From NCBI GenBank assembly GCA_033439255.1, contig CM065884.1:2542001-2606000 (forward strand): 64,000 nt of DNA. Reading direction: 5' to 3'. The notes under the pieces were generated by a model, which did not search any database, was not told where the DNA came from, and saw only the letters and a program-made list of their open reading frames with translations. This DNA is from Hericium rajendrae. Its lineage: Eukaryota > Basidiomycota > Agaricomycetes > Russulales > Hericiaceae. Positions 2,647-43,458 of the stretch are shown here, one piece after another. The position numbers were made by a program, and so were the translations under genes. Every line of letters starts with the position of its first letter. Within the stretch, counting starts at the first letter, position 1.

Positions 2647-3042
2647 CATCAGGAACCTTGACAATTTTCTGATTGACCTGCAGTGTCTAACAGTGTCTGA
2701 CAGTATCTAATAGAGCTTATAGAGTCTGATCTGTCTGCAGCCACTTTTCAAATGATCACATCTGATTTAGCTTATACATTTAAGAGTGGATATCTATTGT
2801 TCACTATAGAAGTTATCCATCTCTAATTATATATCATAACAGAATTTCTAATATTTGATATTTTCACAAATCTGAGAGCATTCTGAGCAATCTCTACAGT
2901 GTCTGCATGTCCATTTAGCTGAGTCTGATGCTGTCTGATTTAACTAACAGCTATCTGATACTGTCTGATGCATCTGATTTGACTTGCATGAGTACTGTCA
3001 GACACTGTCAGACTCATCAGAAAATTGTCAAGGTTTCTGATG
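2647..3042. mobile_element. CATCAGG-family MITE, copy A1 (in H1)
   Basis: The element starts CATCAGGAACCTTGACAATT and ends with its inverse, AATTGTCAAGGTTTCTGATG. TA is duplicated on both sides. The interior is filled with TCTGA/TCAGA words and is self-complementary overall. Its counterpart A11 occupies the same site in H5, so the insertion predates the spread of this H lineage. Confidence 0.85.
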
Positions 3043-3361
3043 TAGTATATATAACTTACAAGTATAGCAGCATATATGAGCATAGATGTGCAGCCATCTC
3101 AAAAATGTAAAATCTATATAGCTGCTAGCCAATGCTATGCCTAGTTTCATAGTGCTATAGCTGCTACGTAGTTGAGCCACAATTTATAATCAATCTGACC
3201 AGTAAGACTTTACTCATTTATGCACTATTCTAAATATAACTAACAATTGAAAAAAATCATCTTGTTATGTGAAGCATCACCCTTCTTCTTCCAAGTGAAA
3301 TGTAACTAATAAAAAAAAGGAATCGTCTTGCCGTGTGAAGCATCGGCCCATTTTTCCCAAG

Positions 3362-5393
3362 TAGCAGATGCACTTATTTCTCCATACAAGGAAAAAACAT
3401 CAAACAAAAGAAAGAAAAGGACCAGAGAAGATGACAATGAAGAATGAATACAAAGAAGCAAGAGGTTGTGCCACAGGGTGAATTATGCATGTTAGTTTTT
3501 AACAATTACATATAACATATTTATTACATATCAAGCATAGTATGAGATCAGATAAAGATCAAGATCAAGATCAAGAAATGAGAGATGCTTTAGATGAAGA
3601 TCAGTGGCAAGATGAAGATGAATAACATGATGATGAAGAATAGGAAAATAAAGATGAACAGGAAGAGGAGAACAGTGCTGATCAAGTACAAAAAAGCCTT
3701 ACAAATGTGGAGAAGACCCTATCTTGGAGTCAAGAGTGCTTTAAAGATATGCTTTCCTCAAAAGAATCTGATGATAGAGATGGTATTCAGCTTTCTTCTA
3801 TTTTACGATGAAAAGGTATGGAGAATTTTTTTTTTAGTTAACAATATGAGTCTAACATCAAGAGCAGAATACTTTTCAGTAGAATTACTCAAAAATGACT
3901 TGAAAACACTCTCTACTCATAGGAACTTCATTCCTGCATCCTCCTCTAGTTATGTTGTGAGGCCGTCTACACATATCAGCCTCAGCAACATGGCAACAGC
4001 TATTAAAAAATGCACTCCTGGATGTCTAGATCCTTTGTCTTCAGTTCAGAAAGGCCTACAAAACATTTCTGATCTTCTTCATAACAATCAATTTATAGTT
4101 ATGATGTCTCATATGACAGCATGACTATGGATTGATCATATTGCAAGCTACTATGCAGATCAAGTCTTGAATGTCCATGCTGAGGATGAAGAAAACTGGA
4201 TTGTAAAGCTCAGGCGAATATTGTTGGCTGCTGCTAATGCAAATAATTCATGCAATATCACTCTGACACCATCAAATTTTACTTTAAATCTTTCTACTGT
4301 GTCCATGTTATCTGTTTCCCACCTTGTTGCAATGATCTCAGCTCTGTTGACTTTAGCCCTCGAAAATACTTTCTTCACCAACCTTTACAAATGACTTTAG
4401 GAAAATGGTTAAATCCTGATCAAATTATCTCTCCTCATACTGTTGCTCAAGCAGTATTTGTACAGAATCTAGTCTCTATTGCAGGTATGTTTATATATCA
4501 ATAGTAATATTTTATAATATCTCATCATGATAAACAGGGATAGAGATTCTTTACTTGGAAAAGACTTTTGTTCTCTTCTGTGGATTTAGTTCAATGGTGG
4601 CAAAGAAAAAGCTATAGCACTCAGTATCTCAAGATGATTTACAACATTTTTCAACTTGGCTATCTCATCATGCTATTGTCATACCAGACACCGAGGAGCA
4701 TAAACTCATGATGTCCATCAATGATGTTTGTGATCAATATTCTGATTTCAACAAAGATGCTCGTAAACATATTGAGACCTTGCCAATTCTCTCTACTGCT
4801 AGTCAGTCTGAAGAGAGACATTCTCCTTCACCACATCCTCCTCTATTTTCTCACCCTCTACTTGGCCACATAAAATGTTTAAAGTTTCTGCATGTAGCTA
4901 TATTCTTCCTGGATAGATTTTCTTTGAAGAATAAGCTGTCATTTACAAGTGATCTAGAATCTGCACCTCCAGAACATCAGGCCCTCCTTACAAAAATGGC
5001 TACACAACTTGACCATTATCTTCTTTTTTGTCAGCATACACCAAGTCTTGTGAGGATGAGAGAAGATGATACTCCTTTTTCACCAACAAATGTTCACTCT
5101 CAAGCTGGATTTTTCAGTGCTCTGATCTTCTGTGGCATCACTTATGGTTGCCAGTTTGTCTTGGATCAGAAGGCTATGTTTTCAGACCTAGAAGACTAGT
5201 CAGCCTGTTATGACAGCCTTAAATCCAATAAATCCTCAAATTATTTTTGTAACACCACAGCTTATAGTTGTCCAACTCAGCATAGTGTTGAACATGCAGA
5301 AAAATATTGGAGAACAGCAAACATAAAATGGAAGAATTTGGTGAAAAGAATAGCACATTGCTCCTTTACAGCATTCTACAAGTGCATCAAAAA
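3362..5393 (+). pseudogene. Decayed multi-exon gene of unknown function, second part
   Basis: Continues the gene broken by H1. A basic segment (KEKTSNKRKKRTREDDNEE) near 3380-3447 is followed by a probable intron, then an Asp/Glu-rich segment (3545-3690). A longer stretch with RAEYFSVELLKNDLKTLSTH runs from about 3855 to 4390, with one in-frame stop near 4122. A clear short intron (GTATGTTTAT...AAACAG, about 4485-4537) and a final stretch (4708-5393, about 225 codons with one stop at 5197-5199) follow. The frame stays open to 5393, where the next H end begins. The mix of basic and acidic low-complexity segments would suit a nuclear protein, but I recognise no domain. Confidence 0.4.
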
Positions 5394-5842
5394 CTTGGTA
5401 AAAGAGGGCCAATGCTTTGCATAGCAATACAATTCCTTTTTCATTGTTAGTTATATTTAGAAACAGTGCATAAATAATGTCAAGTCTTACTAGTCAGATT
5501 GATTATAACTCTTTATAAATTCTCTAGCTACCTTAAGGTCAAGATCTTAAAAGGAAGATCTCAATTTCGTAATTTTGATTTTTGAGTTCTAGATGGACTA
5601 GGGCCTATGTAGCATGTCTGGAAAGCAATTAATCAGTACATTCAGGCACAATTTAGAATGAGTGAATCAGTGGAGAACTGCTAGACTTATCTCAAGGTCA
5701 AGATCTTGGAGGGGAGATCTCAGTGTTGAGTTTTGATTTTTGATTTTTGAGTTTTGGATAGTATGGGGTCTATGTAGCATGTCTGGAAAGCAATTAATCA
5801 GTACATCCCAGCTCAATTTAGAACGAGTAAATCGGTGGAGCA
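5394..5842 (+). mobile_element. H2: truncated Helitron-like element, 5' end plus two tandem units
   Basis: Begins CTTGGTAAAAGAGGGCCAAT with the family hairpin and CAATTCC, then the conserved GTCTTACTAGTCAGATTGAT. Two copies of the ~160-bp family unit follow (about 5520-5842), in reverse orientation relative to those at 12-13 kb. The matching 3' end is not found nearby. The tandem units stop directly at the helicase fragment at 5843, so the two could belong to one decayed autonomous element. Confidence 0.5.
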
Positions 5843-6324
5843 CTAAATGTTAAGCAATCAAGAGCATTCAAAATTATTGCAAATCATGCTGTGACTCCAC
5901 AGTCTGAGCAGCTCAAGATGTATTTAGGGGGTATGGCTGGCACAGGCAAGTCACAAGTCATCAATGCTACGATCAAGTTTTTTGAGCAGAGACAAGAGTC
6001 TTACAAATTTTTAATCATGGCACCTACAGAAGCTGCAGCAGCTTTGATAGGAGGATCAACAGACCATTCTATGTTAGCTATCAATAAATTTCAACCAGAA
6101 GGAGGCAAAGGTGTATCTACTCTGGCTGATATTCATACTAGGCTTCAACATGTTTAGTACATCTTTTTAGATAAGGTTTCTATGGTAGATTGCAATAGTT
6201 TATACAATATCAGTGCCCAAATGAGCAGTGCACTTAAAGTAGAAGATCAGCCTTTTAGAGGTGTAAACATCATTCTTGCGGGTGACTTTGCTCAACTGCC
6301 TCCTCCTGCTAATAGTGCCTTGTA
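5843..6324 (+). pseudogene. Helitron-type (Pif1-like) helicase fragment
   Basis: About 160 codons of the helicase domain encoded by Helitron transposons. Visible parts are the start LNVKQSRAFKIIANHAV, the Walker A motif GGMAGTGKS, a motif Ia-like APTEAAAALIGG, the Walker B-like FLDKVSMVD and the motif III region LAGDFAQLPP. One in-frame TAG lies before FLDKVSMVD. The Rep nuclease part and the C-terminal helicase motifs are missing. The reading frame is cut at 6324 by a CATCAGTAC-type MITE flanked on this side by TA. This is the only Helitron protein seen in the window. Confidence 0.8.
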
Positions 6325-6850
6325 CATCAGTACTCTTACAAACTTTCTGCTAGATCTTATTCTGTCTGATCTTGTCTGATCACCTTATCTACCTGACAGA
6401 TTGGTCATTTCTGGCTAAAAACAAAATCAGGCAAGTCAGGCAGAGTCAGATTTTATCAGATATGCATTTACACCCAGACCTAGTCAGATTTGAAATATCT
6501 TCTGCTGTCAGACAGCTCAGGCAGGGTATAGTCTCCCAGACACAGTCAGATTTTGAATGTTGTTCAGATTTCAGATATTCTTCAGACTTTAGATGTTGAT
6601 CAGATTTTTTTTTTCTTGTCAGGTCAGCTAGGCAGGGTGTAGTCTCCCAGACACAATCAGATTTTAGGTGTCTTTCAAATTTTTTGCTGTCAGACAGATC
6701 AGGCAGGGTGTAGTCTCTCAGACACAGTCAGATTTTTGATGTTCTCCAGATTTTAAATGTTTATCAGATTTGTTTTCTTGTCAGTTTAGCCAGGCAGGTG
6801 TAATCTCTTAGACATAGTCAGATATCAATTTACATTTAGATTTTAGCTCA
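6325..6850. mobile_element. CATCAGTAC-type MITE relic, first copy
   Basis: Starts CATCAGTACTCTTACAAACT, a variant of the CATCAGG terminus, directly inside the helicase frame. The interior has tandem ~90-bp units containing CAGGCAGGGTGTAGTCTC and CAGACACAGTCAGATTTT. The far inverted end was not found, so the copy is truncated or rearranged. The right boundary is approximate. Confidence 0.6.
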
Positions 6851-7320: not shown

Positions 7321-7415
7321 GTTTGCAACACATTGTAAAACTGCCTGAAGAGGTTTACAATAGATAATATGAACAACATTGAAACCTTCAAACTTTCTGT
7401 TTGACCTGCAAGGCA

Positions 7416-7890
7416 CATCAGTACTCTTACAAACTTTCTGCTGGATCTTATTCTGTCTGATCTTGTCTGATCACCTTATCTACCTGACAGATTGGTCATT
7501 CCTGGCCACAAACAAAATCAGGCAAGTCAGGTAGAGTCAGATTTTATCAGATATGCATTTACACCCAGACTTAGTCAGATTTGAAATATCTTCTGCTGTC
7601 AGACAGATCAGGCAGGGCGTAGTCTTCCAGACACAGTCAGATTTTGAATTTTCTCTAGATTTTGAATTTTTTCCAGATTTTGAATGTTCTCCAGATTTTG
7701 AATGTCAATCAGATTTTTTTTTCTTGTCAGGTCAGCCAGGCAGGATGTAGTCTCTCAGACATAGTCAGATTTTGGATGTCTTTCAGATTTTTTGCTGTCA
7801 GACAGATCAGGCAGGGTGTAATCTTTCAGATATAATCAGATTTTAGATATTTTCCAGATTTTATGCTGTCAGACAGATCAGGCAGATATA
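7416..7890. mobile_element. CATCAGTAC-type MITE relic, second copy
   Basis: A direct repeat of 6325-6850: same CATCAGTACTCTTACAAACT start, same ATTTACACCCAGA segment and the same ~90-bp internal units. It starts right after a short piece (7376-7415) resembling the end of the 401-bp CATCAGG subfamily, with CA before it. The distal terminus is missing. From 7891 to 8127 I see only AT-rich non-coding sequence. Confidence 0.55.
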
Positions 7891-8127
7891 ATTCTTTGAC
7901 AAAAGAACTACTAACTACAATTTGTACTGTATATAAATTCCATTTCTCATATTCATACTTACTATCATATCTTATTTAATACTATCAAATAAAACAAAAT
8001 AAGTTAACAAGTTACAAATAAACTGACTTACATCAATTTTTTGCAGTCTAAAAACACTAACTTTACTGTCAGACAGAAGCACTAATCAATAGTCTAAAAT
8101 TCTATAATAGTACTAGTACATTAGAGG

Positions 8128-9063
8128 CTAAAAGGCTATTTCAAATGCATGATGATCAGAATATTTGTTAACATAAAAAGAAGCAAAGGCATCAAGAGAA
8201 TAGACATGCTTAAAGCTGATAGGAATAAGTTTTTGTTCAGAAACACCAATCAAATGAGCACCTCTCAGAATACAGTCTGTATGTATCACTGAACACACAA
8301 ATTCTCCATTTTCATCCACTTCTCTTTCTACTATCCACATTCCTGTATCTTCATCAGGTGCATCACTAACAGGAATGAACCATTGGATCAAGGCACATGA
8401 ATAAGTAATTTCCTCATCTTCAAATGAGAAAAAAAGTAGCACTTGTCCAATATAAAGCCCTCTCATTCTAGGTAAGGTTGGATCATTTTTAATAAAGGTC
8501 TTGACGAGGATAGTTTCCATACCATTCACGTGATGATCGAATACGATGTTGATGAACACCCTTTATATCAGATGGATCACTAGGTGCATAGTATGTGGCT
8601 ATTGCAGAGTTATAGATATTGAGTTTATCTGGAGCCATTGGACATTTTGAAATATCAACATTTAATGATGTATAACCAGCAGTAACATTTGTTTGATCAA
8701 ATAAAAATTGTCGAATATAATTAGACAAATTTGGTCTGCCAATTGATTGAGCAATTTGATGAAGTGTTCGAGGATATCCTCGTGCACGTGTTTTTGCCAG
8801 TTTAACACCCATTCTAATATGTTGACCAAAGTTATCACTAAGTACAACTTCATTGATTTCCATTGGAAAATGCAGAGGTTTAATAGTGGACTCAGAGTCT
8901 GAACTTTTATCTTGAGTTAGACCTAAAGGTTGACTCAACATGCCACGCTGTATAAAGTCCACTGTGCATGCCTTAAGCTTATCAAGTCTTTGGTTTGTGA
9001 GCAACATTTGTCCCAAAGCATTATAGCCACTTGATCTCCTCCAAGGCTCCTTAACTGCTTTTA
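8128..9063 (-). pseudogene. Plavaka transposase, C-terminal part (separated by insertion H3)
   Basis: The minus strand from 9063 encodes KAVKEPWRRSSGYNALGQML, then YNSAIATYYAPSDPSDIKGV and, after a frameshift near 8505, LPRMRGLYIGQVLLFFSF. It ends HHAFEIAF, the usual C-terminus of Plavaka (CACTA-like) transposases of basidiomycetes. The N-terminal part lies at 18281-16250 on the same strand. Joining 16250 to 9063 restores the conserved ESKHIKAVKEPW exactly, so H3 inserted between these two bases. The transposase would have cut and pasted a Plavaka DNA transposon. It is inactive. Confidence 0.85.
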
Positions 9064-10843
9064 TTACAATTCCTTAGAATCATTTACTCTATACTGCCTT
9101 TTCATAGTGAAAACGACACCAAAATGATGACTATGCCCATTAGGCAGTTGGCTTATATAATCATACATCTTGAATCTGACAAGTTTGCAGGTTCAACTCC
9201 AGCTCTGGCCAAACTTTGTTGATTTAATGTAACTTGATCAGTTCTCAACCAATTCACCTGTTCTCAAATGCATCTGGATCTGCTCATTTATTGCTTTCTG
9301 ACAGCATTTTTTGCATTCTGATCTGTGCAGAAGTCACAAAGTGCAATGAATTTTCACATTTTCCCCTTATGACACTTGAACTTGAGCTAACTCAGTCCAT
9401 TCTCCACCAATTTACTCGTTCTTAAATGCATCTAAATCTACTCACTTATAGCTTTGTTACCATACTTTATGCGTCCAAATCGGTTAAGAACTCGCAGAAT
9501 GCAAAGTGTTTCTTTTTTTCCTGTTCTAAAATACTTGAACCCTAGCTAACTAGGCCAATTCTCAACCGATTTACTTGTTCTAAAATGCATCAGAATCTAC
9601 TTACTGATAGCTTTCTGATGGTGCCTCAGGCGTTAGGATCGGTGCAAAACTCGTAGAATGCAAATTGTTTCTGCATTTTTCCCCTAGAATGCTTGAACTC
9701 CAGCTAACTTAATCAGTACTCAACTGATTCACTTGTTCTCAAATGCATCCAAATACACCAGAAAGCTGGTCTCCAACACAATTTACTGCTTACAGAAAGA
9801 TACAGCCACTAAAATGATACATAGCAAACAAATGTACATACTGTTTATTGATAAAATGAGCAAAAAATGCAATTTATCGGTAGCAGTGGGTCCTGAAACT
9901 TGGTCATGTGATCCCACAGGACCTTGTGCAGCTGAACAAGGTCTTAGCACCCGCTTACATAAGCATAAGTCACCTAGAGAGCCAATGCACTGTATACAGT
10001 GATTGCTTTATAGCTCTACAACAAAGCAATCAATCAACAAACAGTAAACTGTCTTCAAATACATTGGATTACATCTTTCCAATCCAATTTAGAATATGAA
10101 AATCGAATCACTGCAAGCAGAGATATGTTTCGATTTATGTGCCACATTAGCAAAATAGTATTGTCTCCTATCTCAACAACCAATGGTGCTATAATGTTGT
10201 AAACTATACTATTAGAAAGCTACTGTAAATCTGATTTCAACAAGCCTTTATATATCATGATTGATGCAGTATCAGCAGAGTTATAAAGCAATTAGTCTGC
10301 CATATCATCACGGACATATAGTCCAATAGGTCAGCATTTTGCCATGCTATCTTGCTGTTTATAGCACTATCCTAAAGCTATTCTAAATCTGATTCTAACA
10401 AGCTTTCACTCATTTTGATTCATGTGGTATTGAGAGGGCCATGGTGCAATCTCTATACCACATCATCAGAAGAGATCCAGAAAGTTGATGATGACCCTAC
10501 ACCATCATTGGACACCTCAGCCACAACTTGCTGCAGATGAGGACTGGGCATGTCCAAGCCTTGTAGTCAGTGTGCACTACTAATAGTATCACACTGACTT
10601 CAAAGCTATCTAAAGAAAAGAACTAAGAGCAGAGAGTGCAACATCAACTACTGCTGATATAAGCTAAGCACAGCCACCAGATCTTGTATGGCCGAACAAG
10701 GTCTGCTACTGATCACATGATTGGCTATTAGCTTTCTTCAACTGTACAGTATCTGACATTGATGCTACAAGTATTTATTATACAAGTATATCTTATGATT
10801 TCTTAGAATCATTTACTCTATACCACCATTTTATAGTGAAAAC

Positions 10844-11033
10844 TATCAGGAACCCTTTCAGTCTTCTTAGTCACCTTGTTGGTCTGGTTTGGATCCGGTG
10901 GATCTGATTTTTGTCTAATTTGTCTGATTTTTGTCAAATCAGATAAAAACCAGACAAACCAGATAAAAACCAGATCCATCAGATCCAAACCAGACCAACA
11001 AGGTGACTAAAAAGACTGAAAGGGTTCCTGATG
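10844..11033. mobile_element. CATCAGG-family MITE, copy A2 (190-bp near-perfect palindrome)
   Basis: The ends TATCAGGAACCCTTTCAGTC and GACTGAAAGGGTTCCTGATG pair almost perfectly to the centre near 10940. AC is duplicated on both sides. The site is the conserved GAAAACGACAC of the H family, seen uninterrupted at about 9110-9121, so the 2-bp duplication is proved against an empty site. Confidence 0.9.
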
Positions 11034-11379
11034 ACGACACGCAAATGATGACTATGTCCATTAAACAGTTGGCTTATATAATTATGCATCTTCAATCTGA
11101 CAAGTTTGCAAGTTCAATTCCAGTTCAAGCCTGATTCTCTTTACACTTTATTCCATATCTAATAGTACTATAGTTGTTGCATGACAAAGGCACTCTGAGA
11201 CTTGATTAAATGATTAAAAACTCAGTGTTGTGATCTATATTGCTCAATCATTTTTCGTATACATTGAGCACATACAATAAGTATATATACTATATAGCAA
11301 TATACTATGTGAGCAAATCATTTAATGACTGTTGAAAGATTCAGTCTTAATATGAGCTCCAATGTAGCAGCACTTCATC

Positions 11380-11460
11380 ATGGTACAGCTGTACCATAGT
11401 TGTGATCACATGAGCACTTCACCATGGTATGGCCGTACCATGGTGGTGATCATGTGATGA
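11380..11460. repeat. Inverted-repeat cluster in H4
   Basis: Contains ACCATGGTATGGCCGTACCATGGT (11421-11444) and a looser hairpin around CATGGTACAGCTGTACCATA (11389-11408), each able to fold on itself. The two are similar to each other. They occupy the position in H4 equivalent to the 70-bp palindrome of H1. Confidence 0.6.
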
Positions 11461-12021
11461 TTACATAATCAAAACTCGGTGGTGAAGTGTGAGTTCTCTT
11501 GAGTTTGCAAGTTCAATTCCAGTTCATGCCAGATGTTTTTGATATTTTGTAATACTAAAAATAATATAATCAATGAGCAATGAGCATTAGTACAATGTCT
11601 ACTCTTATGGTATATTATAAGTACAGAAATGTCTATAAATCTATATGTTAAAGACTGATTACATAATCAAAACTCGGTGGTGAAGTGTGAGAGCAGTAAA
11701 GTCTTGCTTCCTTATGAGCTTTACATCCTGCATACTTGTGATGTTGGCTGCAAGGCTTGATGGGTATCTTCAAGTCATCCGCTGAGTGGTTGACGGTTTG
11801 GAACCAGGAGGTACTCAACCTGATGGCTCACCTTGGTCGTCTTGTATGTATCTCACTTGCTGAGCTGGCAGGCTAATTTATTCATAGGTCTCTAAATTTA
11901 ATACCAACCAGGGTGTATTATACCTTTTCAAAACCATATTGACAGCTGCTTTTAGACAATGCCTTCTGAGCTATGCTAGCTTATCTGTCTAGTTGAAAAT
12001 TAACCAATCATCATTATTCAA

Positions 12022-13136
12022 ATGATCTTGAGGTAAGTCCCTCAATTCTCCACCAATTTACTTGTTCTCAAATGTATTGACATGTGCTGATTAGTGGCTT
12101 TCCAGATATCCTACATAGGTCCAGATCTGTGCAGAACTCGAAAATCAAGACTCGAAATTGAGATTACCCCCTCAAGATCTTGACCTTGAGGTAGATCCTT
12201 GAATTCTCCACCGATTCTCTCGTTCTAAAATGCATTCGACTCTACTGATTAATCACTTTCCAGCCATGCTACATAGCCCCCACACCATCCAGAACTCGAA
12301 AATCAAGACTCAAAATTGAGATTACCCCTTCAAGATCTTGACCTTAAGGTAGATCCTTGAATTCTCCACCGATTCACTTGTTCTCAAATGCGTCAGAATG
12401 TGCTAATTAATCACTTTCCAGCTATGCTACATAGCCCCCACATCATCCAAAACTCAAAAATCAAGACTCGAAATTGAGATTACCCTCCAGAAACCTTGAC
12501 CTTGAGGTAAGGTAAGTCCATCAATTCTCCACTAATTCACTTGTTCTCAAATGCATCAGAATGTGCTGATTAATTGCTTTTCAGCCATGCTACATAGCCC
12601 TCACATCATCCAGAACTCGAAAATCAAGACTTGAAATTGAGATTACTCCCTCAAGATCTTGACCTTGAGATATGTCCTTCAGTTCTTTGCCAATTCTCTC
12701 GTTCTAAAATGCATTCGACTCTACTGATTAATTGCTTTCAAGCCATACTATATATCTCCCACACCATCCAGAACTCGAAAATCAAGACTCAAAATTGAGA
12801 TCTCCCCCTCAAAATCTTGACCTTGAGGTATGTCCTTCAGTTCTTTGCCGATTCACTTGTTCTAAAATGCCCTGAAATGTACTAATCAATTGCTTTGCAG
12901 TCATGCTACATAATGCATAGCCCTCAGACTGTTCAGAGCTCAAAAACCAAGACTCAAAATTGGAATTATCCCCTCTAGAAATCTTGACCTTGAGGTAAGT
13001 CCATCAATTCTTTACCAATTCTCTTGTTCTCAAATGCTTCAAATTTTACTAATGAACTGCTTCTCAGCCATGCTATACAGGTCTTGTATTGTCTAGAACT
13101 CAAAAATCAAGACTCAAAATTGAGATTTGTCCTCCA
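12022..13136. repeat. Tandem array of about seven ~160-bp units in H4
   Basis: The phrase AAGATCTTGACCTTGAGGTA recurs near 12174, 12332, 12489, 12653, 12811 and 12978, spaced 157-167 bp. Each is followed by CTCCACCGATTC, GTTCTCAAATGC and TTTCCAGCCATGCTACATAG. The array resumes after MITE A3, at 13347-13400. Two units of the same family lie in reverse at 5520-5842. Confidence 0.85.
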
Positions 13137-13346
13137 CATCAGGAAGGTTGACAACTTTCTGCTAGACCTGTGAGCAATCTGAGAGCATCTGAGAGCATCT
13201 GATTGATCTGCAGATTTTCTGATCTTATCTGAGAGTGTCTGATTTATTTGTCAGACAAGATTAGAAAATCTGCAGATCAATCAAATGCTCTCAAATGCTC
13301 TCAGATTGCTCACAGGTCTAGCAAAAAGTTGTCAACCTTCCTGATG
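13137..13346. mobile_element. CATCAGG-family MITE, copy A3
   Basis: 210 bp, from CATCAGGAAGGTTGACAACT to its inverse AGTTGTCAACCTTCCTGATG, nearly self-complementary throughout. Flanked by CA on both sides. It cuts a unit of the ~160-bp array. Confidence 0.9.
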
Positions 13347-13416
13347 CAGGCTCTTGATCTTAAGGTAAGTCTGACAGGTCTCCACTGATCATACTTTAAT
13401 TAAGTACCAACAATTT

Positions 13417-13997
13417 CATCAGGAAGGTTAACAACTTTCTGATTGATCTGACAATTTCTAACCCTACTGACAGCTCCTGATTGACCTGATCCACCTGAAA
13501 GTAATCTTAACAGGCAAATATCTGATCAAACTTTTACATTTAAGTAAAAACATTTATTGTCAGATATATAAGTTTTTAATCTCTAACTAATAGATATATC
13601 AAAATCTCTAATATTTAAAATTTTCTAAATCTGAGAGTGTCTGATCTGAGAATTTTTTCAAATCTGGAGGTCAAATATCTGAAAATTATCTGCAACTGTC
13701 TGAGAGCATCTGATGGTGTCTGACACTGTCTGATCCATCTGACTGATATTTGACCTCCAGATTTAAAATCAGACACTCTCAGATTTTCAAAAATTTCAGA
13801 TATCAAAGATTTTGATATATCTATTAGTTAGAGATTAAAAACTTATATATCTGACAATAAATGTCTTTTCTTGAATGTAAAAGTCTGATCAGATATTTGC
13901 TTCTCAAGATTGCTTTCAGGTGGATCAGGTCAATCAGAAGCTGTCAGTAGGGTTAGAAATTGTCAGGTCAATCAGAAAGTTGTCAACCTTCCTGATG
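13417..13997. mobile_element. CATCAGG-family MITE, copy A4 (581 bp)
   Basis: Same subfamily as A3 (GGAAGGTT ends), with a longer foldback. The two halves mirror each other around about 13707. TT is duplicated on both sides. Open reading frames inside are by-products of the palindrome. Confidence 0.9.
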
Positions 13998-14320
13998 TTG
14001 TACCTAATGTTTTTATAGACTATTTGCTATAAATTTCATAGAGATTTATTATTAATCTGACTAGTAAGACTTTACTCATTTATACACTGTTATTAAATAT
14101 AACTAATAGTGAAAAAAAATCATCTTGCTATGCAAAGCATTCTTTCTCTTCTCTCAAGTACATCAAGTACATATTGTATAACTGAAGATGTTTACAATCT
14201 TGTATTACATATTGCTAGCTTATCTGCAGAGTCAAATATAGTTAGTAAGCTTAAAAAAATATGAATGAGATCAGTATAAATGTCCTCAGCATAATAGTCC
14301 AATTCATGTCACTAGTACTG

Positions 14321-16064
14321 TAGAGTTCAACATAAGTGCATTTGCAGATGACCTGAATACAAACCCATGGGTATTTAACATGCTGTAAGGGCTGACCTGG
14401 ATTTACGTGAGTTTCAGCCACTAGGTGATCTGGAGCTGTGGATCAGGTACCTGTGACATCATAAATCACTTGCAGGTCAGTTCATCTTGTCTTCACTTAT
14501 GACTACTACTATGACACACCAAGTATGCTTTTCACTGCACCATTTTCTTCAATGCAATGGCAGAAATGGGTTTGAATCAGCTTGAGGGGCTTAAGGTGAG
14601 TCTAATCACTGTTAATTCTGTCATACATTGCTGATCTTAGGAGTCTCACTCATTATTGAGTGAGACTTGTTTTCAATATTCTTTGATAGCACACTGTTCT
14701 ACTATCTTTTGACATTATGCCTCACCTAGCATGTTGTTTGTGCCTCTCTCCATTACCTATGTGTTCAATAATGCCCTCAGTACTGATAATACCTGCAAAC
14801 TTTGCTCTCACATGTGCAAGTGTTCCAGCTCTTATTCACATTCTGAAAAGTATGCATGGTGCCAGTATAACATCAGAAACCTTCAAAACTTTCTGATTTA
14901 CCCTGCAGACATCTGATAGTGTCTGACTGTATCTGCATGATCTGCAGCAATTGCATCAGACACATCAGATACTCTCAGACAATATTAGCTACTCTCAGCT
15001 AGTTGCAGAATCAAAAAAGTGTCGATGCAAAATGCTTGCAGACTGATCAGATGTCTGCAGGGTAAATCAGAAAGTTTTGAAGGTTCCTGATGAACATCAG
15101 CAACAATGCACTGTACAGCAATGAGACTTGATTTCTGTTTGTTGATGAATCATGTAGGTTGCATCTGCAGACTCCAGCATCAGACTTATGCTTGCATCAC
15201 TCTCATCCCTCTGCACTGCAGTAAGTGCAGTCATTTGTATGTCTAGTTGACTCTTTCTCACAGATGCCTTATGCAAGAACATCATTGGCTCTCGATGTGC
15301 ATTGTGATGGACTGTGTCTTCAATCGGGCAGAATGATCAGTCAAAGGACAATAAGATGCAGATCTTCATGATCAAGGGTGACTGGAAGAGGATCAGGAGT
15401 GAGCTCAAGCTTGTCAATACCTGTGAGGACATTCTTGACTTCATCAACAAGCATGTCATCCCCTCAGCTATCTCTGGTGAGTGGCACCCCATTTTGTGCA
15501 ACTTCTGCTTGCACCTGACAGTGTGCAATTGCCTTTGTATGCTTTGAATAGCATACACCACAGCAGTGCATGCATGCACATGTACCTGCACCTGCTATGA
15601 CTGCAATTCTTGAACTGCATGTCCATGCATGGCACAGATGGTGCATGTGCTACCACGTGCCCTTGTATTTATCTGCACACAACTCCTCATTGCATGTGTG
15701 TCTGCTCATACATGGCCTCTGCAAGTCCTGTGGCAATCTGTGCTGTTGAATCATATCGCTTATGGAGTGCGATAGGTAGCAGCAGAGGGTGTAGACAGTA
15801 GTATTAGCTCTACAATTATGTGTAGTTACTACCATAAATTAGAGCTCATATCCTGAATAATTATAACACTTTGGCAATTGAAGTTCAAGTTACAAGTTAC
15901 CATGGGTTACCTGTGGGTCAATGAAGTTGAGCAAAGTCTTGACCTAGATCTGGACAGGTTTTAGCCACTAGGTGATCTGGATCTGCAGGTCAGGAACTTG
16001 TGAGTAAATTTTACAGGTTTATCCATGTTGATGCACAGGTGACTCTGAATCATGTTGAACCCTA
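14321..16064. mobile_element. X3: hAT-like non-autonomous element with captured exon-like sequence
   Basis: The left end TAGAGTTCAACATAAGTGCA and right end ATGTTGAACCCTA are decayed versions of the X-family terminal repeat. Both arms contain the family core TTTCAGCCACTAGGTGATCT or its variant. The 8-bp flanks (TAGTACTG, TGATGGAG) do not match, so this copy is old or recombined. The interior (about 14480-15870) holds exon-like pieces, including MAEMGLNQLEGLK followed by GTGAGTCT (14557-14600) and a 77-codon open stretch with IFMIKGDWKRIRSELK (15314-15547). No transposase is seen. Confidence 0.55.
14871..15092. mobile_element. CATCAGG-family MITE, copy A5 (in X3)
   Basis: 222 bp, CATCAGAAACCTTCAAAACT to AGTTTTGAAGGTTCCTGATG with one terminal mismatch. 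AA is duplicated on both sides. Confidence 0.88.
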
Positions 16065-16249
16065 TGATGGAGCAACCACTGATAGACAATGTGAGTTTGA
16101 AGGTACTATGCTATCAGATTTTGGCAATTTGCATTATGCAAAAAAACAAAAAGCAAGTTTACTTATTTATGCACCTTCATAAAAAATACTAGCTAACAAT
16201 AAAAAAGGAATCATATTGCCATGCGAAGCATCGGCCCTCTTCCACCAAG

Positions 16250-18281: not shown

Positions 18282-18334
18282 GATACTAGATATATCCAGG
18301 ATTCAATAATGTCCACAAGAGCTTTACTATTTGT

Positions 18335-18560
18335 TGAGCACAGAGAAGTGCATAAGATACTCCAAAAGCACAAGAGATTCCAACTTCAAGCACAAGAGAC
18401 TCTTGACTTTCGAGTCAAGTACAACACAATATGATTTCGAGCACAAGAGGCTCCAACTTTTGAGTTGAGCACAAGAGGCTCCAACTTTTGAGTCGAGCAC
18501 AAGACAATACAATTTCTAGCACAAGAGGCTTCAACTTTCGAGTTGAGCACAAGAGAATCT
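18335..18560. repeat. Short tandem repeats upstream of the Plavaka gene
   Basis: The phrase GAGCACAAGAGGCTCCAACT recurs imperfectly about six times, alternating with ACAATATGATTTC-like segments and with TTTTGAGT(T/C)GAGCACAAG. This may be a subterminal repeat region of the Plavaka transposon. I could not identify its terminal inverted repeats. Confidence 0.6.
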
Positions 18561-23632: not shown

Positions 23633-23724
23633 CATGTTAGTGTCTGATGCAACTGCTGCAGATCATGCAGAGATACAATCAGACACTGTCAGATGCCTCA
23701 TAGGTCAAACAGAAGCCAGCTTCG

Positions 23725-28073: not shown

Positions 28074-28484
28074 TATCAGGAAGCTCCTAAACTTTCTGAG
28101 ATAGTCTGGCACTTTTACAATAATTGCAGCTACTGCAGAGTCTGATACACCTGTTACAAATTCTCATATGTTAATATCTCATTGAATATTTAGCTTAAAC
28201 AGTAAAAACCTCTTGTCAGATATAGTAGTTATCTATCTTTAATTATAAAATATAATACAATTTCTCTAATCTAAAATTTACAAAAATCTTTTGTTGTCTG
28301 AGATCATTTCTGACTGAATCTGGTAGTCAAATAATCTGACACTGTCTGATACTGTCTGATTCTATCTTAACCTAACTAATAGCTCTCTGACATCATCTGA
28401 TATATCTGACTTGACTCGCACGATGTCCTGCAGATCCTACAGATTTTCACAGGTCAAATCAGAAAGTTTAGAGGCTTCCTGATG
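28074..28484. mobile_element. CATCAGG-family MITE, copy A9
   Basis: 411 bp, TATCAGGAAGCTCCTAAACT to AGTTTAGAGGCTTCCTGATG. TG is duplicated on both sides. Inserted in the Gag part of the gypsy fossil. Confidence 0.9.
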
Positions 28485-29584: not shown

Positions 29585-29835
29585 CATCAGGAACCTTTAC
29601 AACTTTTTGATGCATCTGATTTTGTCTGACTCAATCTGATTTCAATCTGATTGATCTGAAAAATGTTTTAAAGAACTTCTGAGCTTTGTGTTATATATAT
29701 AAAAGATAAAATATTATAACTGTTTATATTTCAACTCTCAAATATCTATTTTTTGAAAAATTAGATCAATCAGATTGAAATCAGATTGAATCAGACAGAA
29801 TCAGATGCATCAGAAAGTTGTAAGGGTTCCTGATG
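29585..29835. mobile_element. CATCAGG-family MITE, copy A10
   Basis: 251 bp, CATCAGGAACCTTTACAACT to AGTTGTAAGGGTTCCTGATG, GC duplicated on both sides. The inner arms (TTGTCTGACTCAATCTGATT) also pair with the other half. The following 29836-30062 holds no recognisable gene. Confidence 0.9.
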
Positions 29836-30381: not shown

Positions 30382-30791
30382 CATCAGGAACCTTGACAAT
30401 TTTTTGATAGGTCTGACAGTGTCTGACAGTACTCGTGCAAGTCAAATCAGATGCATCAGACAGTATCAGATAGCTGTTAGTTAAATCAGACAGCATCAGA
30501 CTCTATCAGACACTATCAGTTAAATGGACATGCAGACACTGTAGAGATTGCTCAGAATGCTCTCAGATTTGTGAAAATATCAAATATTAGAAATTCTGTT
30601 ATGATATATAATTAGAGATGGATAACTCCTATAGTGAACAATAGATATCCACTCTTAAATGTATAAGCTAAATCAGATGTGATCATTTGAAAAGTGGCTG
30701 CAGACAGATCAGACTCTATGAGCTCTATTAGATACTGTCAGACACTGTTAGACACTGCAGGTCAATCAGAAAATTGTCAAGGTTCCTGATG
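30382..30791. mobile_element. CATCAGG-family MITE, copy A11 (in H5)
   Basis: 410 bp, CATCAGGAACCTTGACAATT to AATTGTCAAGGTTCCTGATG. TA flanks. It sits at the same H position as A1, so both descend from one insertion. Confidence 0.88.
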
Positions 30792-33130: not shown

Positions 33131-34174
33131 TTGTGCAGCATCGTACTGCGCATGATGGAGATGAAACATGATGGAGGGGTAGATAGGGTAGCACTGCAAC
33201 GATCATGATGGAAATGGATAGTGGATCAAGGCAGTGCAATAATGTTCATGCATACATGTAGATATGGTTAAATAAAGAGAATAGAGCAACGGGACATTGG
33301 CTATGGTGAAGATGTTGAAGGGAGTGATGTCAAGTTAAGAAATGAAATGTATAGTTCTTAACATGCATTGGCATGTTGTCAATGAAGGTGGACACTGGTG
33401 ACATGACAGCGAGGTGATGTAATGGCGAAGTGGTGAGGTGGCGAGGTCAGAGAGGAGATGGGGTGATGGTGGAGGGACGAGGATGGGCACAAAAGGATGA
33501 AGTTGTCGAGAGTATTGCTCAAATTTGAGCAATACTCTCTGCATTAGCAAACATACAAAATAAAAGGGTTTTGATTTACTTACCTATGTTCCTCAACTTC
33601 CTACACATCTCTCTCCAGTGTTTGGTTCGACGATAAGAGAGAGAGGAGGAGGAGAGAAGAGGGAGGAGGAAGGGAGAGGAGTGAGAAGTGGTAGAGTCGA
33701 GATGAAGTTTGATGCATGTTTCAGTACAGCAGCCACTAAACACATGTGCTCGAACATTTTCAAGCTTCATAAATCAAATAAAATAGAATAAATTATGAAA
33801 AAAAGAAAAACACTCTTATATACTCATAAGATACAATTGAATACTAATTATGGTACTACGAGCTACTCGACAGCAAGATGAAGTTAGTGAAATCTGCAAC
33901 TAAGCTTCTGATGCAGTGTCTGGCAGTGTCCGAGCCAAGTCACAGCAGTCACATTTTGAGCTTCACTTGCTACATCTACATAAGGTGCACAAGATGCACG
34001 ACCTCTCTTTCCTCTCAACCACTACCATCTCTTGTCTTTGAGACTTCTTCCTTTGCTTTTTTGATGTTTTGTTATCTTTAGTAAGTTCTCTATGTTCTTA
34101 TGTTCTTAATACCACTAATATAATTATGTTCTCAAGATATTTTCACTTTTTTATATGTTTGTTTGTAAGTCTAT
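33131..34174 (-). other. Spacer between H5 and H6 with exon-like fragments
   Basis: On the minus strand near 33615-33580 a short ATG segment (MCRKLRNI) runs into a GTAAGTAAATC donor-like site. After an intron-like gap ending in GCAG (about 33543) comes an exon-like piece with VLLKFEQYSRQLHPFVPIL (about 33537-33340). The same two-part layout recurs in X1 near 37270-37420. The right part (33950-34110) resembles the promoter-like segment at 23725. Nothing intact is seen. Confidence 0.35.
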
Positions 34175-36426
34175 TTACGATTCCTTAGAATCGTTTACTC
34201 TATACTGCCTTTTCATAGTGAAAACGACATGCAAACGATGACTATGCCCATTAGGCAGTTGGCTTATATAATCACACATCTTCAATCTAACGAGTTTGCA
34301 GGTTCAACTCCAGCTCTGGCCAAACTTTCTTGATTTAATGTAACTTAATCAATTTTTGACCAATTCACCTGTTCTCAAATGCATCTGGATCTGCTCATTT
34401 ATTGCTTTCTGACAGTTTTTTTGCATCCTAATCTGTGCAGAAGTCACAGAGTGCAATGAATTTCCACATTTCCCCTCTATAACATTTGAATTTGAGCTAA
34501 CTCAGTCCATTCTTCACCGATTTACTCGTTCTCAAGTGTGTCTAAATCCACTCACTTATAGCTTTGCTACCATACTTCATGCATCCAAATTGGTTAAGAA
34601 CTCGCAGAATGCAAAGTGTTTCTTTTTTTCCTCTTCTAAAATGCTTGAACCCTAGCTAACTAGACCAATTCTCAACGGATTTACTTGTTCTAAAATGCAT
34701 CAGAATCCACTTATTGATAGCTTTCTGAAGGTACCTCAGGTGTCAGGATTGGTGCAAAACTCGCAGAATGTGAATTGTTTCTGCATTTTCCCCCTAGAAT
34801 GCTTGAACTCTAGCTAACTTAATCAATACTCAACTGATTCACTTGTTCTTAAATGCATCTGAGTATACCAGAAAGCTGGTATTCAACACAATTTACTGCT
34901 CACAGAAAGATAAAGCCACTAAAATGATACACAGCAAACAAATGTACATACTGTTTATTGATAAATGAGCAAAAAATGCAATTTATCGGTAGCAGTGGGT
35001 CCTGAGACTCAGTCATGTGATCTTACAAGACCTTGTGTGGCCGAACAAGGTCTGGGCACCTGCTTACATAAGCATAAGTCACCTAGAGAGCCAATACACT
35101 GTATACAGTGATTGCTTTATAGCTCTGCAACAATGCAATCAATCGACAAACGGTAAATTGTGTTCAAATACCTTGGATTACATCTTTCTAACCCAATTTA
35201 GAATATGAAAATTGGATCACTGGAAGCAGAGATATTCTTCGATTTATATGTCATATCAGCAAACCAATATTGTCTCCTATCTCAACAACCAATGGTGCTA
35301 TGATGTTGTACACTGTATTGTTAAAAAGCTATTGTAAATCTGAGTTCAACAAGCCCTCATAAATCATGATTGATGCAGTATCAGCAGAGCTATAAAGCAA
35401 ACAGTCTGCCACATCATCACAGACATATATATAGTCCAATAGGTCAGCATTTTGTCATGCTATTTTGTTGTTTGTGGCACTATTCTAGAGCTATTGTAAA
35501 TCTGATTCTAACAAGCTTTAACTCATTCTGATTGATGTGGTATTGAGAGTGCTATGGTGCAATCTCTATGCCACATCATCAGAAAAGATCCAGAAAGTTG
35601 GTGATGGCCCCACACCATCATTGGACACCTCAGCTGCAACTCGCTGCAGATGGGAACTGGGCGTGTCCAAGCCTTGTAGTTAGTGTGCACTACTGGTAGT
35701 ATCACACTGACTTCAAAGCTATCTGAAGAAAAGAAGAGAGAGCAGAGAGCGCAACATCAACTACTGCTGATATAAGCTAAGCACAGCCACCAGACCTTGT
35801 GTGGCCGAACAAGGTCTGCTATTGATCACGTGATTGGCCATTAGCTTTGTTCAACAATACAATGTTTGACATTGATCATATATTCAATCTTGAATCTTGT
35901 TTGATTAGACATACAACTAGACTACTACTATAATTGTAGATATTACAAGTATCTATAGTATAAGCATATATAATAGTGTATATCATATATTGAGCTGAGT
36001 ATAATAAGATATGACAAGTGTGTACTGTATAACATACAAGATTATATATAAAATAAGGTGCTAAGATATTAGGGTTCGACACGAGTCAGAGTCACCCACA
36101 GGTCAATCCAGATAAACCTGCGAAATTTACCCGCAGGTCTCTGACCTGCAGATCCAGATCACCTGGTGGCTGAAACCCGTCCAGATCCAGGTCAAGATCT
36201 TACTAAAAGGCATTGACCCATGAGTGACCCACGAGTAACCTACAATAATATTAACCTGATGTCTAGTGTTTCGTTGATTGAAGGTATCTCATTGGTCTAC
36301 AGTGTATATACATGAATTTCTTGATCTACATAGCATGTTCACTAGCTAGCAGTGAGCACAACTACATTGCAAGCAACATCATGAGCCTGTTGTAGAACGC
36401 CAGGCATCAGCCACATTACGTTCTTC

Positions 36427-37476: not shown

Positions 37477-37877
37477 CATCAGGAACCTTCAAAACTTTCT
37501 GATGGATCCTGCAGAGTCTGATCAACTGCAAGACCTGATTCAGCTGCAGGCTCTAATTAGAGGACAATTTCTGATCAGAGATTTTATATTTTGAAGTTAA
37601 TAACTATTGGCAGATATAGTAGTCATCCAACTCTAATCATTAGATGCAACAAAGTTTTCAATATCTAAAATTTATATGAATCTGATCAGTTCTGATCAGT
37701 CTGCAAGCATTCTGCATTGATACTTTTTTGAATCTTGAGGTCAAATATTCTGCAGCTAGCTGAGAGTAGCTGATGCTGTCTGAGAGTGTCTGATGTGTCT
37801 GATGCAACTGCTGCAGATCATGCAGACACTGTCAGATGCCTCGCAGGTCAAACAGAAAGTTTTGAAGGTTCCTGATG
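37477..37877 (+). mobile_element. CATCAGG-family MITE, 401-bp subfamily, copy A12 (in X1)
   Basis: No base difference from A6 was found by eye. TT is duplicated on both sides. Confidence 0.93.
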
Positions 37878-38821: not shown

Positions 38822-40371
38822 TAGGGTTCAACACGAGTCAGAGTCACCTGTAGGTCAACACGGGTATACCCACAAAATTGACCTGCAGATTTTTCACTCG
38901 TAGATCCAGATCATCTGGTGGCTAAGACCTGTACAAATCCAGATCAAGGTTGTGCTCAAACTCATTGACCTGTGAGTGACTTGCGGGTAACCTGCTATCC
39001 AAACTTTATTTTGGTTAACATATTATATTGCAAAGTTCAAATCTATATGTCATGATTCCTAACTAACTACATACTATATGCCATCTGCCAACACTAACTT
39101 ACAGCCCCAATCACATATGTCCATTACTAATCACTATATCTTGCCATACCCATGAATTGTATGAAGTCTACAAGCAAGGCATGGATTCAAAAGGCTGCAT
39201 GCAACATACTTGTGGCATCGACATGCGCATGCGCATGCCGGTGGAGCAGCTTTGAGTATGTGTGTGCACATGGGCTGGCACATGTACAAGGAGAGCATGT
39301 GTGAGTGCTGATGTACTGGCATAGCTGTGGGCATACACACACAAATGACATCACCAGCTTGGATGGGAATTGGGAATGAGACCGGGGAGGGTGCATTTTG
39401 GTTGTTGAATAGCACTGATGGCATATAAAACTTGCCTCACATTGGGCTTCTGCCAGACGAATGATATAACAGCATGCATAGTAGCATGTGTGATGTCCAT
39501 GGGCACGAATGCACACATGTAGTTTGAGCAATGGACTATGGGATGGTGAGGGCATGCAGTCAAAAATATGTATGCTGGCAGGATATGTATTGGTAGATGC
39601 ACACTGTCTCAGACATACAAGGATATGCAAAGCTGTTTGCGGACAACTGCGCATTGTCAAGGCATGCTAGGCACTGCTCAGATGATCAGCAAAAAGATGT
39701 CAAGCCTTGCTGTTGTAGCAACAACACTGTAGCAACAAGACCTGATAGACATTGTGGGCCTTGTGATTGTAGCACTAGACTGGCACTGTGCATGCTCTTA
39801 CCATTGTGAGTGGGAATTAAATCTCTGGTACACATGAGTGCTAGTTGTCGAAGATGGGTGAGGGCCGGTTGGCCAGTTGACCTGTTGATGAGGATGATGG
39901 GAGAAGGCAGATGGTGCATGAGATATGGTGGATGATGTCAAAAAATGGTGGGACGTTGTAAAACCCATCGAACATCATGAAACCTGTCAAAGAACAGTGA
40001 AAAATGAGAGCCTTGCTTGTTATTGAGTGAAACTCCTGAGATCAGTACAGTACAATGAAATAAAAGGCTTTTGGACTCACCTAGAAGCCTCTCAAATCTC
40101 CACAACACCTCTCCTGCCATTGAATTGAGGAGATATGGTGAAAAGGAGAGGATTAAGATGAAGAAACAAAGAGGAGGGCATCGTAAAAGTGAGACACAAC
40201 TTCAAGACCAACTGACCTGCAGGTGACCTGTGATGTCACAGATACCTGACCCTCAGCTCCAGATCACCCAGTGGTGCAAATCTGCATAGATCTAGATCAG
40301 CACCTTGGACAGATAAAATACCTGCAAGTTCAGATCCAGGTCACCCATGAGTGCACTTGTGTTAAACCCTA
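38822..40371. mobile_element. X2: hAT-like non-autonomous element, 1550 bp
   Basis: Ends TAGGGTTCAACACGAGT and ACTTGTGTTAAACCCTA. The 8-bp flanks ATATGCTT and ATATACTT differ at one base. The arms are homologous to X1. Interior 39130-39930 is rich in GCATGTGCA-like words. 40120-39950 on the minus strand carries an exon-intron module shared with X1 and X3. Confidence 0.7.
39938..40120 (-). pseudogene. Recurring exon-intron module in X2
   Basis: MAGEVLWRFERLLG is followed directly by a GTGAGTCC donor near 40078 and, after an intron ending TTTGACAG (about 39992), by FHDVRWVLQRPTIF. X1 has the equivalent MAGRDL...FEGLK before GTGAGTCC (about 37055-37010, minus strand), and X3 has MAEMGLNQLEGLK before GTGAGTCT (14557-14600, plus strand). 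The shared first exon suggests a gene carried by the X family itself, or captured once before it diversified. No family recognised. Confidence 0.4.
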
Positions 40372-41795
40372 ATATACTTAAAGTGATGTTTGCACAATTG
40401 ATGCTCTCATGCATTTGTATAAGTTTTTTGTTACTCTGGACCTTCATGCTAATCGACAGACAATTTTACCAGAAAGTAGTTGCCATATTTGGTCACTAAT
40501 TTCTGCCAGTATACAAAATATAGTTTGAAGGTGAGAATTCAATTTTAATAGTATTTTATGCATGTAAAATAGAAAAATACTGACTAGATTATACATTGAA
40601 GAAATATAAGCTCTATTAAAAAAAAACTGGTATGATTTATGTTATTTTTTGTAAAAGTCAGAAAAAAAATCCAAATATAGAAATTAAATTCTGCCTTTGG
40701 TGCTAGCAGCAATGCATACAAATCAATAGAAGGTGCACAGGCTAACAAAAAATGTATTCTGAAGGATAGCTGTAGTTGTTGTACAAATCATATAAATTCA
40801 AAGGCTTGCTCTGATCTATATGGTCCCTACTATGATCTCTGCTATTAGTACTGTCTCAGATCAATCAGGTACAAGAGATATAAAGCCAAAATCAATTATA
40901 TTTCATACAGCTACTAGTACAATCAAGTATATTACAAGTTCAAACAGTGCACACATGCACAATGGTGCACATCATGTACAGGTAGAGCTATGTGCAGGTA
41001 TGTGTGCACTGGTAAGGCACAACAAAAGTACATATATACATAAAACACTAAGTTCATGCACAAGGCATGATAAGTGTCATAGCTGTGCAGGAGGTCCAGT
41101 GGCCATGCTCATCAATGTTAAGCTGTAGTGGGCCTATATGTAAGATGCAATGTGCAGTGAGGATGTGTGAGATATTGAGAGCCATGCATGAGGCATAGAG
41201 GGTGAGCAGAAGGCATACAGGCCCATATGTAGGGCTGCTACTAGCTTGTACAGGAGATCAACAGGGTGTGGTGGCCATGCACAGGGTGCTGCAAGCATGT
41301 GCAGAGTGTCAAGATGCTGTGGGCCTGTACATGAAGTACAGTAAGCATTTATGGAATGGTTACTTGTATGCAAGATGTAGTGTAGCATGATGAGCATGCA
41401 TAAAGCACTAAGCCTATGCATGGCTTGGTATGTCTGTGTATGAGGCATGAGGCACAAGGTACAGGCAGGTGACACACCTGCACATAGCAACACACAATGC
41501 ATGTATATGCCAGTTGTGCTGGCTGACATGTTCACATTCAGCTATAGTTATCTCTAAGCTGTCACTGGCCCATCCACAAGGTACATTGAGATGTGATAGA
41601 CCAGCCTGAGCATAGGGTGTGACCAGTGAACATGAGGCATAGTGGGCTGGCATGAGGTGTAGCAGGTATGCATGAGGCACTGGCCCCAGCACAATGCTAC
41701 ATGCCAAGTATAAGACATGAGGTACAGGCCTGCATGCAAGATGTCAGTGTACCTGTACATGGCCATACATGATGGTAATTTATATACCTTCATTG
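40372..41795. repeat. H6 interior without genes; TG/CA-rich degenerate repeats
   Basis: 40372-40900 is AT-rich with no signal. From about 41100 to 41780 words such as GCATGAGGCATAG, GGTACAGGC and TGTGCAG recur every 30-60 bp on the plus strand, a decayed low-complexity array. Open frames here are artefacts. Confidence 0.5.
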
Positions 41796-42400: not shown

Positions 42401-42417
42401 TAAAAAGATAGTATAAA

Positions 42418-42441
42418 GTAAATGATTCTAAGAAATCATAA
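42418..42441 (+). other. Orphan 3' terminus of the Helitron-like family
   Basis: GTAAATGATTCTAAGAAATC followed by ATAA matches the H-family 3' palindrome in plus orientation, with CpG sites changed to TpG/CpA. No corresponding plus-strand start precedes it after 41852, so it is a severed end. From 42442 to 43057 no gene is seen. Confidence 0.5.
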
Positions 42442-43057
42442 CTTAAGATAAAACTCCACATGCATATAGGGAATCCATTGCCTCCCAACCACCTCTATGA
42501 CATTACAGCATGAGCAATGGATAACCACATATCTGCAGGTCAATATACTTGTCATAGACATAGTGAATAGTTGACAGTGCAGTGCCTTTGTGTATCCTAC
42601 AATGCAGCCTACAAATGATTATACAAGAATGTACCAAAGCATCATCAACTATGATACAGTGAATTTACCACTATCAGAAAGTGCTATAAATAAAAGTGAA
42701 CTTACAGAGAACATTATATTAAGGCTTAGACATAGAGCTCTCTATACTTGTCAAACTCATCTCAGATCTCTTGCTTAGAATTTGCTCTGTAACTGCAAAT
42801 ATATGTGTCTATATGTGAACATCAAAGTCTGCATACAGTCAAGATATACCTTGTAATATTTAATATTATGCTCTCTCAAATAGATAAGTACTAAGCTTAC
42901 CTAAGGGTAGTAAAAAAATTTTGAGAGAGTCCTGTCACTAAAAGTGAAGCCTACAGTCTCATGGTCCACACATCACCAGTCTCTGCTCAGATACAATGCA
43001 AAAGATTAATACACTCATTGTGATTGACAAAATGGATGTGATGTGCCAAGGTAGATG

Positions 43058-43458
43058 CATCAGGAACCTTCAAAACTTTCTGATGGATCCTGCAGAGTCT
43101 GATCAACTGCAAGACCTGATCCAGCTGTAGGCTCTAATTAGAGGTCAATTTTTGATCAGAGATTTTATATTTTGAAGTCAATAACTATTGGCAGATATAG
43201 TAGTCATCCAACTCTAATCATTAGATGCAACAAAGTTTTCAATATCTAAAATTTACATAAATCTGAGCAATTCTGATCAGTCTGTGAGCATTCTGCATTG
43301 ATACTTTTTTAAATCTTGAGGTCAAAGATTCTGCAGCTAGCTGAGAGTAGCTGATGTTGTCTGAGAGTATCTGATGTGTCTGATGCAACTGCTGCAGGTC
43401 ATGCAGACACTGTCAGATGCCTTGCAGGTCAAACAGAAAGTTTTGAAGGTTCCTGATG
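43058..43458 (+). mobile_element. CATCAGG-family MITE, 401-bp subfamily, copy A13
   Basis: The same length as A6 and A12, with a few substitutions. TG is duplicated on both sides. It is the copy nearest the host genes, about 550 bp beyond the myosin stop. 43459-44007 shows no other feature and includes the myosin 3' flank. Confidence 0.93.

Follow-up and report, generated by a model that had tools for sequence, protein, structure and literature searches.

The stretch of DNA analysed here, 64,000 nucleotides of contig CM065884.1 of the basidiomycete Hericium rajendrae (positions 2,542,001 to 2,606,000 of the forward strand) and referred to below as the window, harbors thirteen complete copies (A1 to A13) of a family of foldback miniature inverted-repeat transposable elements (MITEs) with ends of the type CATCAGGAA. 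It also contains a long element with sister-type ends that encloses a split Plavaka transposase gene, a myosin gene and a Sel1-repeat protein gene. The thirteen copies are very probably non-autonomous, MITE-sized members of PlavakaB that were moved, with a 2-bp stagger, by the Plavaka transposase of longer relatives.

The MITEs range from 190 to 581 bp and together amount to 4,507 bp, or 7% of the window; no strand is assigned to them and none contains a transposase match. The first copy, A1 (2647-3042, 396 bp), has the target site duplication (TSD) TA and the right end CATCAGAAACC. It is followed by A2 (10844-11033, 190 bp, TSD AC), A3 (13137-13346, 210 bp, TSD CA), A4 (13417-13997, 581 bp, TSD TT), whose 213-nt arms are 92% complementary, and A5 (14871-15092, 222 bp, TSD AA), which carries CATCAGAAACC as its left end. 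Further along lie A6 (19354-19754, 401 bp, TSD CA), A7 (25148-25379, 232 bp, TSD TG), A8 (27258-27658, 401 bp, TSD CA), A9 (28074-28484, 411 bp, TSD TG), A10 (29585-29835, 251 bp, TSD GC) and A11 (30382-30791, 410 bp, TSD TA). The last two are A12 (37477-37877, 401 bp, TSD TT), which is identical to A6, and A13 (43058-43458, 401 bp, TSD TG). One base has decayed at four ends: A2 and A9 read TATCAGG on the left, and CATCAGAAA is found on the right of A1 and on the left of A5. The 9-mer CATCAGGAA at 27913 was not taken as the left boundary of A9: the inner repeat starts at 28074 as TATCAGG, and the TG preceding the 9-mer is a chance occurrence.

The ends were modelled as a 27-base matrix, with which the window was searched on both strands. 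The matrix was derived from nine of the thirteen window copies, from a single end of A9 and from further copies outside the window. All 26 ends were recovered, by construction for those that entered the matrix but independently of it for A1, A2, A5 and the left end of A9. The scan also returned three sister ends and six weak matches (12.1-14.5 bits), found no MITE end past 43458 and gave no match in one shuffle of the window. Genome-wide, the string CATCAGGAAS occurs 592 and 564 times on the two strands, versus 120 and 112 times for the reversed control. Every copy folds on itself more strongly than its dinucleotide shuffles (z from -4.4 to -31.4, 20 shuffles each), with 59-91% of bases paired, the extremes being A9 (59%) and A2, A3 and A4 (89-91%). 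The preliminary description of this DNA, made from the letters alone, had recognized thirteen strongly self-complementary copies with common ends as one MITE family, and both points hold.

A matching dinucleotide flanks all thirteen copies, in the same order of sequences as previously described. The length of the duplication was assessed without regard to flanks by pairing the nearest facing ends in the window and in the genome loci examined, A2 falling below the threshold. A 2-bp repeat was found in 26 of these 27 pairs, the sole miss being the pair at 720-970 of locus L078 (CG/AC). The 2-bp duplications elsewhere in the genome that had been named beforehand as support are thus observed. In a list of 30 pairs that was partly selected by the 2-bp repeat, such a repeat is present in 29 and a 3-bp repeat in none. 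Empty sites were sought by joining the two flanks with a single copy of the dinucleotide and aligning them to uninterrupted relatives. The empty site of A2 aligns without gaps to window positions 9069-9171 (88%) and, with one gap, to a second relative at 34167-34283. That of A6 aligns over 118/118 positions in locus L073 (93%), again without gaps. Gap-free empty sites were also obtained for elements in L014, L011, L009, L010, L051 and L052, and the alignment for L056 has two gap positions. These gap-free empty sites confirm a duplication length of 2 bp. Three insertions had been reported as verified by empty sites; this stands for A2 and A6, and for A7 no empty site was found in the sequences compared. 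The choice of target had been described as free. The dinucleotide is indeed variable, but not fully so: CA/TG occupies 14 of 39 target sites, a set selected for having the 2-bp repeat, against 15.4% in the window taken as background (p=0.0014); for the targets of CATCAGGAA-class elements alone the figure is 13 of 29 (p = 0.00016). L009, L010 and L014 contain MITE-ended insertions whose flanks, when joined, match window positions 40126-41116 at 95-97%, and this part of the window may be a frequent MITE target.

The genome contains 132 Pfam matches to the Plavaka domain (PF18759), and partner ends around them were sought by exact searches of the genome with 25-nt ends. MITE-type ends enclose a Plavaka domain at C12:1371880-1381143 (9,264 bp, flanks TT/TT), at C9:1681679-1691546 (flanks CG/CG) and at C9:1775279-1785221 (flanks CA/CA). 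The two C9 elements have different flanks and one layout, in which 6.2 kb separate the domain from one end of the element and 2.6-2.7 kb separate it from the opposite end. The 25-nt end of the C12 element recurs exactly in MITE ends at C1:62094 and C1:84277, and in the window it is one to two bases off in A1 and A11, the two ends of A11 being one and two bases away from those of the C12 element. The right end of A10 equals the C9 element ends over 25 nt, and its left end is two bases off. In ten of the thirteen window copies, both ends lie within 3 of 25 bases of a C12 or C9 end. The likeness extends beyond the terminal inverted repeat: the C12 left end resembles A1 and A11 over 53-73 bp, and its right end resembles A6, A8, A12 and A13 over 82-86 bp at 79-81%. 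Plavaka domains are enclosed by ends of the types CATCAGGAASSTT, CATCAGTAC and CATCAGGAGTC. An A10-type end was also seen at C5:1672696, 2.8 kb behind a Plavaka domain at C5:1668965-1669861, a spacing as in the two C9 elements; its partner end was not found.

Several other candidates for transposase-bearing relatives were discarded. The long pairs in L009, L010 and L011, which measure 5.9, 6.3 and 3.8 kb, were dropped as autonomous copies, and four of their larger open reading frames (two in L009, one each in L010 and L011) gave no Pfam match at E 0.01. Since the empty site of L009 recurs inside L009, this pair appears to be a MITE swollen by another repeat; L010 and L011 might, at a guess, be swollen likewise. 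At C4:1714553-1722838 the ends are of the MITE type, but the flanks differ (AG/TA) and the matches listed include no Plavaka domain. Finally, TTCCTGATG, which lies at a constant distance after many Plavaka domains, was rejected as an element end because it is coding (a conserved ...RFPDGR... stretch).

The sister-type ends form a second group. Three of them (CATCAGTACTYTTACAAACTTTCTG) lie in the window, at 6325, 7416 and 23632, and 54 places genome-wide match the sister end with at most two mismatches, versus none for the reversed control. Eighteen CATCAGTAC pairs, covering 36 of the 54 places and selected by position alone, were examined apart from the window pair 7416-23632. Ten of them show a perfect 2-bp repeat where about one is expected (two of the ten representing one segmental duplication). 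Four enclose Plavaka domains, three of these with the 2-bp repeat. Ten CATCAGTAC pairs, on C3, C5, C7, C10, C11 and C12, are 3.2-3.5 kb apart. They are probably a second non-autonomous family, since none overlaps a Plavaka domain among the matches listed. Two CATCAGTAC pairs about 29 kb apart, C12:1709109-1712401 and 1738023-1741318, have identical 12-base flanks and likely represent a segmental duplication.

One sister-ended element lies in the window itself. This PlavakaB-type element occupies 7416-23632 on the reverse strand and measures 16.2 kb with its nested insertions, among them A6; its ends are CATCAGTACTYTTACAAACTTTCTG, its flanks CA/CA, and some of its segments show 95-98% identity to segments of C4:1771016-1779410. 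It carries a Plavaka gene on the same strand, whose N-terminal domain part lies at 16911-17813 (PF18759, E 9.5e-100) and whose C-terminal domain part lies at 16167-16817 (PF18759, E 5.6e-15) and is truncated at 16250 by a later insertion. The preliminary description had stated that no transposase for the family is in the window; a Plavaka sequence is there, as a split gene within a sister-type-ended element. The later insertion, for which no strand is given, spans 9065-16249 (7.2 kb), splits both the element and its Plavaka gene and contains A2-A5; its boundaries were placed where the match to L073 stops, at 16250, and resumes, at 9064. It has a target overlap of at most one base, and its edge is related to the repeats at 34175-35876 and 308-1612. 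Remnants of A-type MITEs, likewise without strand, adjoin the PlavakaB-type element at 7383-7415 and, on the opposite side, at 23640-23714. Because these remnants stand directly outside both of its ends, the element was probably inserted into an A-type copy that was already there. A second CATCAGTAC-type end, at 6325-6823 on the forward strand, has no partner of its own that was found within the window. It interrupts at 6325 a coding sequence (6241-6324, read by eye as ...LAGDFAQLPPPANSALY), which we take to resemble the Pif1/Helitron helicase.

Two further genes were recognized in the window, a myosin gene at 47945-48667 on the reverse strand (Myosin_head, E 2.4e-69) and a Sel1-repeat protein gene at 50366-51904 (E 1.8e-49).

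The PlavakaB group was described with the termini CATCA..TGATG and duplications of 2 or 3 bp, and was placed in the CMCT clade together with EnSpm, Mirage, Chapaev and Transib (Kojima 2025, PMC12730594). The window family has these termini, the first left base being decayed in A2 and A9 (TATCA), and it has the 2-bp duplication at the frequencies given above. The PF18759 domain lies within such ends in three MITE-type-ended and four sister-ended elements. The assignment to PlavakaB is made because the ends and the duplication fit and because the Plavaka transposase is present in long relatives whose ends match. What sets the window copies apart from PlavakaB as published is their small size and their want of a transposase match (PMC12730594). 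The C(2)C and H(3-4)H motifs are common to transposases of the CMCT clade; CLMC and HSLKHH were noticed by eye, unaligned, in the window transposase reading frames. The family had been thought to match no fungal superfamily that could be named with certainty, a statement that no longer holds given the published PlavakaB signature (PMC12730594).

Other known groups fit less well. PlavakaA has the termini TGT..ACA, in contrast with the CATCA..TGATG of the window family. Tc1/mariner elements are known to duplicate TA only, and TA flanks just two of the thirteen copies. MULE and Foldback elements make duplications of 8-11 bp, as against 2 bp here. Non-autonomous CACTA/EnSpm elements start with CA like the window MITEs, and like them carry numerous repeats of a short subterminal motif, facing either way, behind a short terminal inverted repeat. 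Yet fungal EnSpm has CAC..GTG ends and a 3-bp TSD (PMC12730594), whereas the window family has CATCAGGAA ends, not CAC, and 2 bp. The Marasmius oreades families MarorhAT-4, -11 and -12 are a parallel in organization, being non-autonomous mushroom families that share terminal inverted repeats with an autonomous relative, but they belong to hAT and not to Plavaka (PMC9674265). Among the matches listed for literature on Plavaka, PlavakaB, CATCAGGAA or basidiomycete MITEs, no Plavaka MITE was seen. The main text of the PlavakaB paper contains neither the word "MITE" nor the word "subterminal" (PMC12730594).

A number of observations weigh against the PlavakaB assignment or limit it. Three window copies, A2, A7 and A9, differ by 4-8 bases from the C12 and C9 ends. 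The two commonest MITE end types are GGTTRAC (359 places) and CCTTCAAAA (250 places), and among the first 100 places listed for each, no consecutive facing places form a pair that encloses a listed Plavaka match; pairs with unlike end types do exist, and this check covered pairs with like ends. Two CCTTCAAAA pairs of 9.6-9.8 kb on C5 also lack a Plavaka domain among the matches listed. Eight of the eighteen sister pairs have no 2-bp repeat, including the Plavaka-enclosing C4:1771016-1779410 (TG/TA). The transposase itself is assigned to PlavakaB from the ends and its Pfam match, not from a tree. A longer relative with the same ends and a transposase had been named beforehand as the support to look for; the C12 and C9 elements provide both, but the coding capacity of the Plavaka-carrying elements is known from domain matches, an intact gene being demonstrated in none. 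Current movement, too, would find no support in the sequence data.

Another transposase, such as that of the KDZ group (Zisupton, Kyakuja, Dileera), could in principle move the MITEs via similar ends, and KDZ domains are plentiful in the genome, with 172 Pfam matches. The Zisupton duplication is, however, 8 bp (PMC12730594) and that of the window family 2 bp; CATCAGGAA ends were seen at none of 30 KDZ loci examined over about 1.5 kb on each side, a reach too short to exclude them; and it is Plavaka domains that sit within MITE-type-ended elements with 2-bp duplications. A role for KDZ is considered very unlikely. The preliminary description had implied a new superfamily with variable 2-bp duplications, and indeed the ends and the duplication fit none of the older superfamilies compared, while the two commonest MITE end types are without a proven transposase-bearing partner among the places listed. 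Against this, the signature is the published one of PlavakaB (PMC12730594) and transposase-bearing elements have MITE-type ends, so that a new superfamily is held to be highly improbable. Fold-back repeats with strong self-complementarity and internal repeats might also have spread by recombination or replication slippage, the 2-bp repeats being fortuitous. Hardly any credence can be given to this origin in view of the matching dinucleotides (13/13 and 26/27) and of the gap-free empty sites, which contradict it. Non-autonomous PlavakaB members are by far the preferred reading of the window MITEs.

The interior of the MITEs offers a possible clue to the way in which they are recognized. It was said to be built almost wholly from TCTGA/TCAGA words; their enrichment is strong (131 words in 4,106 bp, where 200 shuffles averaged 18.0 and reached at most 30), and "almost wholly" is an overstatement. 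These counts and the following spacings exclude A12, which duplicates A6. Of the same-strand spacings of 5-45 bp, 120 of 144 fall within one base of 10, 20, 30 or 40, the 144 coming from related copies and so being non-independent events. Random word placement gave 29% phased spacings and at most 48% (2,000 trials). Phasing is likewise seen in the leftmost 600 bp of the C12 element (27/34). The CATCAGTAC ends are not phased at 10 bp (34/108, with 18 of 36 ends kept); their steps measure 18-19 bp. Four CATCAGGAGTC/CATCAGGAATC-type ends give a mixed picture (47/128). A 10-bp phasing would accommodate proteins arrayed along a single face of the helix and is consistent with the proposal that the words are transposase-binding sites. 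We tentatively suggest, as a possibility rather short of even, that the words at 9-10-bp steps form a putative platform with many landing sites for the Plavaka transposase or a helper protein, that the MITEs are essentially two such platforms folded together, and that in the sister families this word recurs every 18-19 bp.

PlavakaB elements are cut-and-paste DNA transposons, kin of EnSpm/CACTA and Transib. Judging from the anatomy of the copies, the MITEs would be mobilized in trans by cut and paste. In this scheme, Plavaka transposase supplied by longer relatives with matching ends would recognize the terminal repeat, approximately CATCAGGAASSTTNNNAACTTTCTGA, and would probably also bind the TCTGA array behind it. 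The element would then be excised and inserted into a staggered target cut, and the 2-bp offset of that cut would leave the 2-bp duplication.

Overall, a MITE family that looked like an orphan can now be given a name and is tied, within its own genome, to transposase carriers whose ends match, and its mobilization in trans by the Plavaka transposase has become directly testable. The recently described PlavakaB signature would thereby come to cover non-autonomous elements in large numbers. For the recognition of the ends by the enzyme, the phased TCTGA array provides a concrete hypothesis and, if it is true, paired landing platforms would explain why the MITEs outnumber their transposase-bearing relatives.

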